Assembly: GCA_016932415.1 (NCBI GenBank)
Contig: JAFGCX010000034.1
Span: 73,002 to 137,001 of the forward strand
Reading direction: 5' to 3'
From: Candidatus Krumholzibacteriota bacterium
GTDB lineage: Bacteria > Krumholzibacteriota > Krumholzibacteriia > Krumholzibacteriales > Krumholzibacteriaceae
Length of the DNA: 64,000 nt
This document shows, piece after piece, positions 27,945 through 63,800 of the stretch; the stretch's first letter is position 1; each line of letters begins with the position of its first letter. Made by a program: the position numbers and the translations under genes. The notes below the pieces were generated by a model. The model was not told the DNA's origin. It saw only the letters and a list, made by a program, of their open reading frames with translations, and did no database searches.

Positions 27945-27981
27945 AGCGGAAGAACTCATCGGGCCAATAATCGCAGATTAC

Positions 27982-28017
27982 AAAGCTCTTTCTCAATTTC
28001 AGGGAAAGAGCTTTTTT
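27982..28017 (+). terminator. Intrinsic terminator after the lipoprotein gene
   Basis: An 11-bp perfect stem, AAAGCTCTTTC (27982-27992) with GAAAGAGCTTT (28004-28014), an 11-base loop and a run of six Ts ending at 28017. It isolates the next transcription unit from upstream reading. Confidence 0.9.
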
Positions 28018-28086
28018 ACAAGGTTGCCCTGCAGACGTAAATGCAAGTAATATAACAAGATAAAAAACGATTTGAGGGGAAAAAGG

Positions 28087-28101
28087 TGGCACATTAATTG
28101 C
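28087..28101 (+). promoter_or_regulatory. Sigma-54 (-24/-12) promoter upstream of mglA
   Basis: TGGCAC (28087-28092), a 5-base spacer, then TTGC (28098-28101): an exact match to the core of the RpoN consensus, with GG and GC at the required 12-base distance. With C28101 as -12, transcription begins at 28113. No equally good element was found elsewhere in the intergenic regions. Sigma-54 promoters need an AAA+ activator; two are encoded at 58.8 and 60.8 kb. Confidence 0.75.
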
Positions 28102-28112
28102 GCATGCAGTTG

Positions 28113-28240
28113 ATGTCGGGGTGGATTATTCCTGATTCTAACGAAGTAATAACACCCTAGCTCAAGTGACGTTAGCCTGCTCCGGATTCTGCTTCCTTCG
28201 TCTGTGCATCGAGTGAGTGGGATGGAAGCTGCCCCGACAT
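28113..28240 (+). ncRNA. Candidate structured 5' leader of mglA
   Basis: Outer stem P1: ATGTCGGGG (28113-28121) pairs perfectly with CCCCGACAT (28232-28240), 9 bp. Inside it are two 6-bp perfect stems: CTAACG (28138-28143)/CGTTAG (28170-28175) and GCTTCC (28191-28196)/GGAAGC (28224-28229). The result is a closed three-stem junction. The ribosome site GGAG (28251-28254) lies 10 bases beyond P1. It matches no riboswitch class I know. A competing 5-bp pairing (CGAAG 28142-28146 with CTTCG 28196-28200) hints at alternative folds. Folding was done by eye only. Confidence 0.45.
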
Positions 28241-28263
28241 AAAATTATAAGGAGATCATCAAG

Positions 28264-29388
28264 ATGGCAGTCTATAACTATGCAGGTGGAGAGATCAATG
28301 TCAAGATAGTCTATTATGGCCCGGGAGTAAGCGGGAAAACTACGAATCTTGAACTTATGTATTCGAAACTACCCAGAGAGAACAAGGGAAAGATGGTTTC
28401 GATGAAGACCCGTACTGACAGGACCCTTTTCTTTGATTTTCTTCCGATTGAAATAGGCGATTTCAAGGGGATGAAAGTGCGTTTCCTCCTGTACACGGTA
28501 CCAGGCCAGGTCTACTATAACGCCACCCGGAGACTTGTCCTCAAGGGAGTCGACGCGGTAGTCTTTGTCGCTGATTCTTCTCCAGGCAAGATGGATGAGA
28601 ACATCGAGAGTCTTCATAATCTTGAGGAAAATCTCAACGAGCTTGGAATGTCACTCAGCACGATACCATGGATAATCCAGTACAACAAGCGCGACATCGA
28701 AGGATGCATAAGCAGAGATGTGCTTGATATAGAACTGAACACATGGAACGCCGACGCGATAGAATCAGTAGCCGTGACGGGTCAGGGAGTCTATGAGACT
28801 TTCGAGGGTATAGCAAGAAAAGTCTTTGAATCACTGAAGGATATGCTGAGCGAATCGGAACCGGAAGAAGAACCGGTGGACGAGGAGCCTGAAGATGAAG
28901 ATATCAATGTCGAGATAGTTGCTCAGGGTATATCAAGGAATCAAAGCTCAGGGACGGATGAGAGCGAGTCTTTAGGTTACGCAGAGGAGAGAGAAGAGGA
29001 GCACGAGTCTGTCTCTGAGTTTGTAGAAAATGTCCTCAAGGAAGGCGATCTGCCTGAGAACAGCATAGATCTGGGAGCAACCAGGGGAGGATACGAGGAG
29101 TACGGACACGTCGTGGAACTCGGTGGCACGGGGGCGGAGGGTGAAGCTGAGGAGGCTCCAAAGATGACAGTAGCGGTCGAAGAGAAGAAACCCGACTTTA
29201 TAACCGACCCACTCGATAATCTGTCGGAAAATGGACCCCGGGCGGATTCTGATAGCAGTGACGGTGAAATGCTTATATCGGACGAATCGTTCGAGAAGCT
29301 GGTGACGATTCCAGTCGAGCTGACAGAAGACCAGGTCAGAAACAACATCCCGGTCAAAGTCATTCTCGAGATCAAGGTGACACCCTGA
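28264..29388 (+). CDS. mglA: MglA-family small GTPase with long acidic C-terminal extension
   Basis: 374 residues. The first ~195 are an MglA-type Ras-like GTPase: G1 loop GPGVSGKTTN (G19-N28), G3 TVPGQ (T78-Q82, with T in place of the usual Asp), G4 NKRD (N141-D144). R53 and Q82 fall at the same positions as the catalytic pair known in Myxococcus MglA. MglA sets cell polarity for motility and surface systems. Unusual is the tail of ~180 residues, very rich in Glu/Asp, ending in a more ordered block (LISDESFEKLVTIPVELTEDQV...ILEIKVTP). No MglB (roadblock) partner is encoded nearby. Expression is probably from the sigma-54 promoter at 28087-28101. Confidence 0.88.
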   Translation: MAVYNYAGGEINVKIVYYGPGVSGKTTNLELMYSKLPRENKGKMVSMKTRTDRTLFFDFLPIEIGDFKGMKVRFLLYTVPGQVYYNATRRLVLKGVDAVVFVADSSPGKMDENIESLHNLEENLNELGMSLSTIPWIIQYNKRDIEGCISRDVLDIELNTWNADAIESVAVTGQGVYETFEGIARKVFESLKDMLSESEPEEEPVDEEPEDEDINVEIVAQGISRNQSSGTDESESLGYAEEREEEHESVSEFVENVLKEGDLPENSIDLGATRGGYEEYGHVVELGGTGAEGEAEEAPKMTVAVEEKKPDFITDPLDNLSENGPRADSDSSDGEMLISDESFEKLVTIPVELTEDQVRNNIPVKVILEIKVTP

Positions 29389-29412: not shown

Positions 29413-29542
29413 GATATCTCCGTTCAGGCACACTCCCCGCGATTCCCCTCACTTAAATATTCCTTGACCGGCAACCAAAATAAGACGAAGATATATAACG
29501 GGTCCAGTGATGCTGATCCGGAATTTTGCCTGGAGAGGAAGT

Positions 29543-29923
29543 ATGCCTAAAATACTTATTGTCGACGATGAAGCGAATGTCAGAATGCTCTACAGGGAGG
29601 AACTTCAGAATGACGGTTACGAGACTGTTCTGGCAGAGAATATCAGTGAAGCGATAGCTTCTGTCAAGAATGACGCTCCTGATCTTGTCATTCTCGATAT
29701 CAAACTGGACAAAGAAAGTGGAATAGATGCCCTGACAAAGATCATGGAGCAGCGCAAGGACCTGCCGGTGATCCTTAATTCGGCCTATTCAGTGTATAAG
29801 GATAATTTCCAGACATGGGCAGCTGACGCATATATAGTGAAATCAGTCGATCTTGATCCTCTGAAGGAAAAGATCAGGGAACTGCTGGACAGGAAAGCAA
29901 AGACCGGAGAATCAGAGGTTTAG
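29543..29923 (+). CDS. CheY-like single-domain response regulator
   Basis: 126 residues from ATG 29543 with AGAGGAAG upstream; in-frame codons further upstream lack a ribosome site. A complete receiver: acidic pair D8-D9, phospho-acceptor D52 (LVILDIKL), S80 as the switch Ser/Thr, and K100 in the VKS loop. No output domain, so it acts by protein contact, as CheY does. No kinase lies next to it. It follows mglA by 154 bases and is coupled to the outer-membrane-like gene 2 bases downstream. A link to the MglA module is inferred from position. Confidence 0.88.
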   Translation: MPKILIVDDEANVRMLYREELQNDGYETVLAENISEAIASVKNDAPDLVILDIKLDKESGIDALTKIMEQRKDLPVILNSAYSVYKDNFQTWAADAYIVKSVDLDPLKEKIRELLDRKAKTGESEV

Positions 29924-58812: not shown

Positions 58813-60184
58813 GCAAGTCCTGATAGTCGATGATGAAGAGAGCATACGGAATTCCCTTGAGAAACTCCTCTCGTTCGAAAAATATGGCACATTTTCCGCG
58901 CCTGACGGAAGATCCGCCCTGGAACTTCTTCTGAAGGAGAGGATAGATATCGTCCTTCTCGACATTAAGATGCCAGGGATGGATGGGCTTGAGGTCCTCG
59001 GAAAGATCAAGGAGAGGCAGCCGGGGCTTCCCGTCGTGATAATCTCCGGACATGGAAACATCTCTACAGCGGTGGAAGCGACAAAACTCGGAGCTTTCGA
59101 TTTTATCGAAAAGCCGATCGATCTCGAAAGGCTTCTTCTGACGATAAGAAATGGTATCAGACAGGGAGATCTTTCCCGTCAGAACCTCATGCTCAAGAAG
59201 GAGGTAATAGGGAGGACAGAGATCATTGGTGAACATAAGGCGATCCTCGATATCCTCGCGACGATAGAAAGAGTCGCTCCGACCAATGCCAGAGTCCTCA
59301 TCACCGGAGAGAACGGGACTGGAAAGGAGATGGCTGCCAGGAAACTCTATGAGCAGAGTAATCGCAGCGACCAGCCGTTCATAGAGGTCAATTGCGCAGC
59401 GATACCGGAGGAGCTGATCGAAAGCGAACTGTTCGGACATGAGAAAGGTTCTTTCACCGGGGCGGTCTCGCAGAGAGTCGGAAAGTTTGAACTTGCTGAT
59501 GGTGGCACCCTTTTTCTTGACGAGGTGGGCGATATGAGCCTGTCAGCACAGGCAAAGGTCCTTAGAGTACTTCAGGAGGGGGTCTTTCAGCGCGTAGGGG
59601 GGTCAGAGACCAAGAAGGTCGATGTGAGAGTAATAGCGGCATCGAACAGAAACCTTATCGAGGAAGCAGAGAAAGGAAACTTTCGCGAAGATCTTTTTTA
59701 CAGGTTGAATGTTGTACCGGTAAAGATCCCACCTCTTCGGGAGAGAAAGACAGACATAAGGATTCTCTCCGAATATTTCATATCGTTGATATGCCAGGAT
59801 CTTGGAGTCACGCCAAAGAAGTTCTCCCCGGACGTATACGAAGTCTTTTTCGCCTACGCCTGGCCGGGAAATATCAGAGAGTTGAAAAACCTTATCGAAC
59901 GGCTTTGTATCCTTGTTCCCTCCGATACGATAGCAGCGGCGGATCTTCCTCTCTTCGAACTTGCCCATGAAACGGGAAGGTCGAACGATCCGTTTGAGGC
60001 GAGGACTTATCAGGATTTCAAAGATATTTCAGAGAAGGAATACCTGATAAGAAAACTGCGTGATAACAACGGGAACGTATCGCGTACAGCGAGAGAACTC
60101 GGGATGCAGAGAAGCAATCTTTATAAGAAGATCGAGAAATACCAGCTAGATGCCAGGCATGAGGACCGGTCCGGAGAAGAATGA
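58805..60184 (+). CDS. NtrC-family sigma-54-dependent response regulator
   Basis: 459 residues. Receiver domain: D9-D10 pocket and D53 (VLLDIKMPGMDG), with K in EKPIDLE; AAA+ domain ITGENGTGKEMAARKLY (Walker A), GSFTGA at residues 215-220 (A replaced by S, a known variation of GAFTGA), LADGGTLFLDEVGDM (Walker B); C-terminal Fis-type HTH NNGNVSRTARELGMQRSNLYKKI. It needs sigma-54 holoenzyme for transcription activation. No cognate histidine kinase is adjacent; its start overlaps the Ppx/GppA-like gene. A plausible activator for the 28087 promoter, though not shown. Confidence 0.93.
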   Translation: MSKQVLIVDDEESIRNSLEKLLSFEKYGTFSAPDGRSALELLLKERIDIVLLDIKMPGMDGLEVLGKIKERQPGLPVVIISGHGNISTAVEATKLGAFDFIEKPIDLERLLLTIRNGIRQGDLSRQNLMLKKEVIGRTEIIGEHKAILDILATIERVAPTNARVLITGENGTGKEMAARKLYEQSNRSDQPFIEVNCAAIPEELIESELFGHEKGSFTGAVSQRVGKFELADGGTLFLDEVGDMSLSAQAKVLRVLQEGVFQRVGGSETKKVDVRVIAASNRNLIEEAEKGNFREDLFYRLNVVPVKIPPLRERKTDIRILSEYFISLICQDLGVTPKKFSPDVYEVFFAYAWPGNIRELKNLIERLCILVPSDTIAAADLPLFELAHETGRSNDPFEARTYQDFKDISEKEYLIRKLRDNNGNVSRTARELGMQRSNLYKKIEKYQLDARHEDRSGEE

Positions 60185-60832: not shown

Positions 60833-63800
60833 ATGCCAGACGACCCGCAAGGAAAAGGCGAGTTCGAATACGATAAAAACCAGCCTGGGAACCAGTACAA
60901 ATCTGTATGTTCCGAAGAGGAACTTGGAGATATGCACCTGGCAACGGAGAATTACACCGTCGCTCTTGAATATTATGAAAAAGCGCTTCAGAGGGTCCAT
61001 AAGCAGACCGGTGAACCGGGCGACCTTGTGCGGCTGTACAGGAAGATAAGCGACTGTTACAGGAAAAAAGGGCTTCTAAGGGAAGCATCGACCTTTCTCG
61101 AAAGCGCTTCCTCTCACTGTTCAGAAGAGGATCAGATAGGGAAGGGGACGATCGCCTGCAGAAGAGCGATCATAATGAGGGGCCAGGGGCAGATAAAAGA
61201 GGCTCTGAGGGAAGGTTGCGCTGCGTACAAGATCCTGCGAAAGAGCGATCAGCATAAAGAAGTAGCCCATACCCAGCTCCTTATAGCAAACTGTTATTTC
61301 AGGCTCGGCCAGCATGATGAGGCGGAACAGTTCTTTCTTGACGCGCTTTCATCATATCGGCGGATCAACGATTCCGTGGGAGAATCGTATGTCCTGAACA
61401 ATCTCGGGCTTTTCCATAAAAATGCCTGCCGCTGGGGCAGGGCCCTTCAGTTCCTCAACAAGGCTATGGCTATATGCGAGGAGATAGGGTTGAGCCAGCA
61501 CCGGGTACGAGTCACGCTGAATCTCGGTGTCGTGCATCTAAAGAAGAGGGATTTTGCAAACGCGGAAAGTTCGTTTTCAGCAGCGAGAGCGATGGCGAGC
61601 AGGATAGGCGATGAACTGAAATATACCCGGGCGACGCTGATGCTTGGCGTGAAGGAGACAAGGTGCGGAAACCTCATCGCCGCAGAAAAACATCTTCTTG
61701 AGGCAAGAGTCCTTGCCGAAAGACGAAATTACAGAAGAGAGATCGCTCTGGCCGATGAATTTGCCGGAGATCTGATGCTGATCAGGGGAGACATCAGCGG
61801 AGCGCTGGAGAATTACACGATCGCCCTTTCCGAGGCTAAGAAGATCTCACCGGTCAATGATATAGTGGCCGAAGTCGTGCGCAGGATAATGTATGTCCAT
61901 CTCATTCAGAAAAAGCCCCAGCAGGTCATATCGATGAGTGAAAACGCCATCGGGACCTGTAAAAAAGCGGGAGAACTGCACGAGATAGGTTACATGGAAA
62001 GGACTATAGGCCAGGCATATGCACTGATACACGATGACAATGCCGCCGAGAAGAAGATCAATCAGAGCATAAGGACTTTTCTTTCGGTGAATAATCCGTA
62101 CGACGCGCATATCTCCGGCGTCGCTCTCGGCGAACTTCTAATTAAACGCGGTGACAGGAAATCTGTCGTAATCGCGAGGAAGCTGGTCGGCGAGACGATA
62201 TCGTTCTTTGAGAGGAATGAGGAATTCAAAGACCTCGCCAACAGCCATTTTCTTCTCGCGAAGATCGAAGAGACGCTTGGAAACAGGGACGAAAGCCTTC
62301 TTCATATATATGAATCGGAACGTCTGGCCGAAGACTTGTGTGACCGTAACCTCAACCGGCGGCTGAGAAGGATGAGAAGGAAGATCGAGACCGATACGGC
62401 GGGGACGAGCCTGCATGCCGGCGGCGCCTTCAAAGTGCCGCAGGAGCTGTCAGGATGTTTCGTTCATGATCCGCACCTGCATTCCTATCTCGATTATATT
62501 CTTAGCGATATGATGAGAAAAGTCGCTGCCGGACACGGTTTTGTGGCGCTGGCCGGTTCAGGGACCACGGGTGAAAGACCTCTGGTCCTGGCGAGGAATG
62601 GAATATCGGAAGATAATACCTGCTCTCTCACTGACTGGTTCATGAAGAGAGAGGGAGTCGACCTTACCGAGAAATTCCTCATCACCGATACGCCCAAGGA
62701 CCGGAGAACAAAGGATGTAAGGGAATTACTCCCCGAAACCGATTCTCCCGTCTATTTCCATCCGATGGTGAAGGATGGAAGACCTTTCGGATTGATATTC
62801 TTCCAGTCGGAAAACGACGGAAGCAAGGCTCCCAGAGTAGGTTCGGTCTTTGATGTCGTTTCGACTTATGCCGGGTTTATCGGATTCCTGGTCAGAGGTA
62901 TCCTCGGGAATGACAACAATGTTGAAGAAGAGAAATTCGACAGGGGTAAATTCCAGAGGATAATAACCCGCAGCGACAGCATGCTGCGGATCCTCGACCT
63001 TGCGGAAAAAGTCGCCGGATCGGATTCAACCGTTCTTCTTATGGGTGAGACTGGAACTGGCAAGGGACTTATAGCGAAAGCTATTCACAGGCTGAGCACC
63101 CGGGGAAGCAGATCGTTCATCCATGTCAATTGCGCCGCTCTTCCCGAACAGCTTCTTGAGAGCGAACTTTTCGGTCATGTGAAGGGAGCTTTTACAGGAG
63201 CGGTGGCCGACAAGAAAGGCCTGCTTGCCGAAGCGGACGGGGGAACGATCTTTCTTGATGAGATCGATAAATCCCCGCTGTCTATCCAGGGAAAACTTCT
63301 GCAGTTCCTCGATTCCAGAATGATCAGGCCTGTCGGCGGAAACGAGATGATCGAAGTCGATGTCAGGTTGATATTCGCGTCGAAAATGGATCTGATATCA
63401 AAATGCAGCGACGGGACTGTCCTTGAGGATTTTTTCTACAGGATAAACGATTTCCCGATCACTGTTCCGCCTCTAAGGGACAGGATCGAAGATATCACCC
63501 TCCTTGCGGAGCATTACCTCAAACTATTCTGCGACGGAATGGGAAAGAAGATCGTGGGATTTTCCGAAGAAGCGGTCAGTTTTCTCAGAGGGAACAGATG
63601 GCCGGGGAATGTCCGCGAACTTGAGAAGATCATAAAAAGAGCAGTGATTCTTTCCAGCGATAATGGCGTGATTACGCCTGCTCAGTTGACTGTCGACGGC
63701 GCTGTCACCACAGGCAGGCCTTACGGGGAAGAGATGACTCTTCCTGAAAGAATAAGGGAACTGGAGGAAAAATCGGTCTCCGAAACACTGAAGGAGAATT

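Follow-up and report, generated by a model that had tools for sequence, protein, structure and literature searches.

GTPases of the MglA type determine cell polarity for both type IV pili and gliding, and their genes are usually, though not obligatorily, coupled to mglB. In the window analyzed here, a 64,000-nt stretch (bases 73002–137001 of contig 34) of a 3.11 Mb Krumholzibacteriota genome (38 contigs, assembled from uncultured material), an mglA gene stands behind what a sequence-only reading had taken for a sigma-54 promoter. Judged by mglA, the closest named relatives are assemblies of Candidatus Krumholzibacteriota. The locus raises the question of whether a polarity GTPase could depend on an activator, and thus on a signal, and of what the DNA between promoter and start codon contributes. 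Coordinates are window positions, and the features of the locus lie on the + strand.

An orphan long mglA in a genome with a canonical mglBA pair

The gene at 28264–29388 encodes a 374-aa protein with an MglA-type GTPase domain (Pfam Arf, 3.9e-6; supported by orthologs) and an acidic C-terminal extension of 180 aa. The MglA signatures are present as a P-loop, a TVPGQ motif with Thr78, and NKRD, at residues 19, 78 and 141, respectively. At its end, the tail (28846–29388) has a conserved stretch, which reads VTIPVELTEDQVRNNIPVKVILEIKV here and is a possible partner-binding motif. Since none of the nine neighbouring proteins scanned matched the roadblock domain, the long mglA has no adjoining mglB. 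Directly 3' of it lies a single-domain receiver protein (29507–29923), and several relatives were seen by eye to have a receiver-like neighbour as well.

The same genome also carries a canonical pair, mglB (roadblock) and an mglA of 192 aa, 13 nt apart, preceded by genes that we take to be dnaX, ebfC and recR. TGGCA[CT]-N5-TTGC is absent in front of this pair, so sigma-54 is not necessarily required for a polarity GTPase to be made. The earlier proposal that the polarity GTPase is activator-dependent therefore stands for the orphan long mglA and goes too far for polarity as such. Concerning the accompanying remark that mglA genes are usually thought constitutive, one paper on M. xanthus mglA (PMC3000849) nowhere uses that word in its main text.

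A sigma-54 core conserved in front of the long mglA

The letters at 28087–28101 are TGGCACATTAATTGC, an exact TGGCAC-N5-TTGC as had been claimed, with the -24 element TGGCAC, the -12 element TTGC, and the GG and GC dinucleotides of the core 10 nt apart. The site was also described correctly as lying after a terminator and before mglA. Direct reading places the intrinsic terminator of the upstream gene at 27985–28017, where GCTCTTTC, an 11-nt loop and GAAAGAGC are followed by TTTTTT; a hairpin scanner with a loop limit of 8 missed it. By eye, most relatives in the window's own family (f1) have a similar hairpin in the same position. Sigma-54 transcripts usually start 12 nt past the -12 GC, which gives a predicted start at 28113.

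The mglA site is the only exact core match in the window, and four matches with at most one mismatch were observed (1.73 expected). Genome-wide, there were 13 exact TGGCAC-N5-TTGC matches against 3 for a reversed-pattern control, and 16 TGGCAT-N5-TTGC matches against 5. On these counts, a single exact site in 3.1 Mb says little on its own; the mglA site is secure because the core is conserved at the same position before orthologous genes. All 33 long-mglA upstream regions, from five families of the class (f1, f2, f5, f7 and f8), carry it with at most one mismatch. Among the distinct leaders of f1, f2, f7 and f8, with identical leaders counted as one copy, this was true of 28/28, all keeping both GG and GC; one further f1 genome (L153) and four f5 genes (L145, L147, L148 and L150) also have the core. 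Two f3 genes (L102 and L146) show a version with two mismatches. The core was found in none of three f4 loci (L149, L151 and L152) and in 0/21 loci from other phyla (two-mismatch matches in four). Family f6 was left out of the survey, its matches being canonical-type or distant. L087 starts within the gene and has no upstream DNA, and L077 (102 bases) was excluded from upstream counts.

The absence of rpoN had been named as grounds for rejecting the promoter, and the gene is present (PF04552, 217 bits) with its RpoN box, ARRTVAKYRE, intact. There are 25 PF00158 matches in the genome, 21 of them with E below 1e-30, corresponding to ~ 20 sigma-54 activators. Core conservation across families and the presence of rpoN both back the earlier claim, and the mglA site is almost certainly a functional sigma-54 promoter as judged from sequence.

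An upstream element shared with pilus promoters

Counting both patterns, the genome has 29 sigma-54 sites, of which 21 lie outside predicted reading frames and 13–243 nt 5' of a frame in the same direction. The products that follow include PilM, a type IV pilin, FliP, two GGDEF proteins and a polysaccharide export protein, and one further product has a weak match to a chemoreceptor signalling domain (30 bits, cut-off 34.6). Among the remaining eight sites, L135 was placed within a gene by the frame caller, yet it lies just 5' of a likely pilB start.

Activator sites of sigma-54 promoters typically lie about 100–200 bp upstream. At 27970–27982 we observed a putative enhancer, ATCGCAGATTACA, with the core GCANNTTNCA at -114 from the promoter. 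Only three of the 29 sites in the genome have GCANNTTNCA on the + strand between -96 and -114, namely those of mglA (-114), pilM (-114) and pilA (-96). It occurs at two more sites, at -22 in L005 and inverted at -209 before pilB (L135). A [TC]GCA core was found at -112 to -116 in 18 of 27 mglA upstream regions and one helical turn farther, at -125 to -127, in another five, while the strict element was in its slot in only 11 of 28. In relatives, pilM promoters have the sigma-54 core with at most one mismatch in 19/19 analysed loci and the strict element at -112 to -115 in 9 of 18 unmasked loci; for pilA promoters, the core is present at the same tolerance in 15/19 and the strict element at -95 or -96 in 7/19. 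The pilM survey excluded L169, for which there was no upstream DNA, and the weak paralogs L174–L179, and the pilA survey excluded L199–L209.

A weight matrix was built from 14 pilM and 15 pilA elements, with mglA kept out of training (pilM loci L163, with its spacing of +1 base, L161, which is masked, and L170–L172, and pilA loci L186, L190, L197 and L198, were not used). The best match per 300 bases fell between -130 and -105 in 19 of 27 mglA upstream regions, compared with 2.4 expected from position. In the window's own genome, mglA scored 11.4 bits, the top of 27 non-training sites (next, 9.4). In f1, the element lies just 5' of the terminator, so its conservation may in part have a different origin. 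The upstream TTGCA was also considered as a second sigma-54 promoter and rejected by eye, as there is no consistent GG 10 nt before it.

The pilus cluster has the order pilB-pilT-pilC-pilS-pilR-pilA, with pilS-pilR immediately 5' of pilA (pilB, pilT, pilC, pilS and pilR were named from domains and gene order), and PilR has REC, AAA+ and HTH_8 domains. The Geobacter pilA gene, which lies immediately 3' of pilR, is RpoN-dependent and under PilR control (PMC2725144). Given this precedent, the element shared with pilA and pilM, and the position of pilR by pilA, PilR is the leading candidate and probably the activator of the mglA promoter.

A structured leader RNA between promoter and start codon

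Across f1 and in part of f2, the 130 bases from promoter to start codon show striking conservation, and most of this stretch is taken up by a leader RNA of about 125 nt (28115–28238). Its 5' end, 2–3 nt past the predicted start, forms helix P1, in which GTCGGGGTGG (28115–28124) pairs with CTGCCCCGAC (28229–28238) over 10 pairs, with 96.4% of alignment cells paired. Enclosed by P1 are P2, a hairpin of variable sequence as seen by eye; a near-invariant junction motif, ACACCCTAGCTC (28152–28163), whose CACCC core is kept in alignments A1–A3; and P3, formed by CCTGCTC (28176–28182) and GAGTGGG (28215–28221), with 95.2% of cells paired. The loop segment GCTTCC (28191–28196) may form a pseudoknot, P4, with GGAAGC (28224–28229; 77.3% of cells paired). 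A Shine-Dalgarno sequence, AAGGAG, was read at 28249–28254, 10 nt past the end of P1.

P1 and P3 were found in agreement by RNAalifold and by an all-pairs scan. Covariation was assessed in set A3, which holds 17 of the 20 leaders in A2 (L047, L080 and L088 excluded). P1 shows two-sided changes at three pairs, with compensatory replacements of C-G by U-A in 5/17 rows and of G-C by A-U in one. Over P1, P3 and P4 together, 91.0% of cells pair, falling to 50.9–52.7% when the partner is slid by one base. Covariation was 0.186 against 0.142 ± 0.010 in shuffles, and double-change cells numbered 10 against 3.4, levels that 0/500 shuffles reached in either case; since shuffles ignore relatedness, the slid controls and the deep replacements weigh more.

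P3 is unformed in two f2 sequences (L046 and L050, which have gaps there), and P4 is absent by eye in five g12 leaders (L043, L044, L048, L049 and L082), leaving P1 alone as universal in the alignment. Some leaders of f7 and f8 build P1 from a different sequence (GGGGTAGC/GCTACCCC in L100), and the CACCC motif is still present in these families; the leader RNA was not seen in L096, L099 and L101, also from f7/f8. The single-sequence fold energy of the window RNA is ordinary (z -1.05). We are confident that the leader is a real structured RNA.

Conservation and distribution of the leader

Nine genomes with mglA, pilM and pilA leaders allowed a direct comparison across loci. The mglA leader had a mean identity of 0.61, 35 invariant columns and a structure conservation index of 0.57, compared with 0.32, 7 and 0.00 for the pilM leader, 0.46, 11 and 0.47 for the pilA leader, and 0.44, 12 and 0.18 for the DNA just 5' of the mglA promoter. 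The mglA leader stands above all these controls, and its conservation therefore does not come merely from close genomes. The index of the pilA leader also indicates that some leader structure is not special to mglA. Conserved hairpins were observed in the pilA leaders of the order (L180–L196) as well.

Model R1 found 22 matches in 21 of 80 genomes of the phylum, all linked to mglA: 19/20 genomes in f1, 2/5 in f2 and 0/55 elsewhere. The one f1 genome missed, G011, is 61% complete and has only a canonical-type mglA match. Each genome has a single match except G022, in which a second RNA copy (L124), close to the end of a contig, precedes the beginning of an mglA-like frame and may reflect a strain mixture in the assembly. 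Model R2 gave a single match in the window's own genome and weak matches exactly at the expected place in three other loci (L094, E 0.064; L097, E 0.14; L095, E 0.54; 136 kb). Outside the class, R2 matched in 0/17 genomes reached via non-class loci, a search that had no positive control and so shows little.

In f5, only 67–88 nt separate promoter and start codon, too little to accommodate the RNA. This family thus keeps the promoter while its leader is short, and sigma-54 control does not require the RNA. The simplest history would have sigma-54 control coming first, with the RNA added later or lost in some lineages.

Rfam had no match in the window, and a search of four leaders at E up to 5 returned only far sub-threshold matches, none near the gathering score; the best, on the antisense strand of L069, was to a long non-coding RNA family (E 0.005, half the gathering score). 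No tRNA was found in the window. The literature searched, which mostly did not extend to subscription papers, contained no report of an mglA sigma-54 promoter or of the leader RNA, and by title no paper in it was on MglA with sigma-54 or PilR with mglA. Among the matches listed for Krumholzibacteriota, no title concerned promoters, motility or RNA.

Proposed model and alternative explanations

Combining promoter, enhancer and leader, we propose that a PilR-type enhancer-binding protein would bind at 27970–27982 and, by DNA looping, activate sigma-54 RNA polymerase held at 28087–28101, so that transcription would start near 28113. The first 125 nt would fold into a P1-closed domain with the variable hairpin P2, the near-invariant ACACCCUAGCUC junction, P3 and the possible pseudoknot. 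This domain, ending 10 nt before the ribosome binding site, would tune mglA translation or stability on a ligand or protein cue. The product would be an additional MglA with a C-terminal extension, produced alongside the type IV pilus machine, with canonical MglA and MglB supplied by the housekeeping gene string. Taken as a whole, a PilR-type activator and sigma-54 combined with post-transcriptional control of the orphan mglA by the leader is a likely account. The polarity switch may thus be controlled twice, by promoter and by leader RNA. That the leader acts in cis on mglA is the reading towards which we lean.

More tentatively, and on the doubtful side, the leader could represent a new class of sensing RNA (a riboswitch or protein-responsive leader) gating a Ras-like polarity GTPase on a sigma-54/PilR promoter. 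It would then act as an AND gate, in which signalling of the pilus state makes the message and a second cue permits translation. Several candidate mechanisms were evaluated and set aside. A switch between P1 and an alternative helix (GGGGTG/CACCCT) was set aside as unproven: 95.1% of the cells of this helix pair, yet none of its pairs changes on both sides, and two rows change the 5' side (T9 to C) with the partner unchanged. Masking of the Shine-Dalgarno site by the leader was rejected, as its mean unpaired probability runs from 0.15 to 0.97 with no family pattern; this predicted openness is middling and inconsistent between species, and no switch mechanism is therefore visible. CsrA control was considered as well; the GGA of the P3 loop is not conserved (alignment A1, by eye).

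Other explanations of the locus were weighed against the same evidence. A chance sigma-54-like match, with mglA driven by read-through or another promoter, would be in keeping with the 13 exact matches in the genome, some of them within genes, but the 33/33 conservation of position and sequence across five families, the terminator upstream, and a consensus scan that found no sigma-70-like + strand site from 26000 to the mglA start at 28264 make this highly improbable. A DNA-level cause of the conserved block, such as repressor or activator sites 3' of the promoter, would suit conserved blocks that are sequence-only, CACCC among them; the compensatory changes in P1 and its rebuilding with other letters in f7/f8 speak against it, and we regard it as very unlikely. 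Frames of 6–45 aa are present and could in principle encode a leader peptide, an idea we find scarcely credible given that length, frame and start differ among relatives and that insertions do not come in threes.

Two alternatives accept the RNA and differ over what it does. It could be a stand-alone small RNA acting in trans, with mglA a downstream passenger of the shared promoter, as its beginning at the predicted start, its strong closing stem and its single copy would allow. In the window, however, P1 is not followed by a terminator-like run of U, the Shine-Dalgarno site comes just 10 nt later, and every copy found in the 80 genomes is linked to mglA, so that we consider this unlikely. It could also be a constitutive structure that stabilizes the message or enhances translation without sensing anything. 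A stem near the 5' end can shield a message from decay, P1 closes near that end, and a consistent competing helix was not found, the one alternative tried showing no two-sided changes; against this, near-invariant segments that look unpaired (ACACCCUAGCUC and GCUUCC) exceed what a protective stem needs. A purely stabilizing role is possible, and we would give it the lesser chance.

Relation to known systems and significance

The mglA locus resembles the PilR/RpoN pilA promoters described in Geobacter and Pseudomonas in its sigma-54 core and in having pilR beside pilA in the genome (PMC2725144, PMC6058289), and the pilS-pilR-pilA order here is that of such systems. What sets it apart is that an upstream element of one type stands before pilM and an mglA paralog as well as before pilA; mglA goes unmentioned in the main text of the paper on the Geobacter RpoN regulon (PMC2725144). 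Like M. xanthus MglA, the protein has a GTPase domain with Thr78 in TVPGQ (Thr78: PMC3000849). M. xanthus mglA is co-transcribed with mglB (PMC3000849), whereas the long mglA stands without mglB, encodes an extension of 180 aa, is preceded by a sigma-54 promoter of its own and has a structured leader. The absence of an adjoining mglB is shared with the orphan MglA proteins SofG and Bdellovibrio MglA (PMC4316618), a likeness of gene layout; in the present case, by contrast, a coupled mglBA occurs in the same genome, and the orphan comes with a separate sigma-54 promoter and an RNA leader.

Like riboswitches and other structured 5' leaders, the RNA has a conserved, covarying, aptamer-like fold with a P1-closed junction and invariant loops, and it is present as a single copy by one gene, just 5' of the ribosome binding site. 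Unlike them, it matches no Rfam family, shows no visible expression switch and is tied to one gene only.

The promoter reading is well supported, and the larger finding is the structured leader together with the shared pilus-type enhancer, neither of which the earlier reading had noted; past the promoter, the mechanism is inferred. If the model is true, the lineage splits the work between a housekeeping mglBA and an inducible orphan mglA in the pilus regulon, and an undescribed RNA forms a second layer of control on the orphan. The 125-nt RNA with its covarying core is a concrete target for which a ligand can be sought, and the short DNA element predicts a shared activator for pilA, pilM and mglA. 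The matching of a polarity protein to pilus expression would become testable in a little-known lineage.

Additional observations at sigma-54 promoters

A motif derived from 23 sigma-54 promoters of the genome, TGTAACNNNTTTTAA, had a log-likelihood of 59.9, compared with 40.6–47.6 in six mononucleotide-shuffled sets (which used fewer starts). It recurs at many of the genome's sigma-54 sites (L002–L014 and L125–L140), mostly 30–80 bases 5' of the -24 element, and could be a DNA-bending or common activator site. Between the putative enhancer and the mglA promoter lies an A-rich element, TATAACAAGATAAAAAACG (28051–28069), which matches this motif only weakly (7.8 bits), so that the motif is a side observation for mglA; a TTAAAAA-like stretch was seen by eye to recur in relatives. 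Another exact sigma-54 site lies just past the window end (C34:137809), and two AAA+ domains of sigma-54 activators were observed near that end, at 59222–59722 and 62960–63460.
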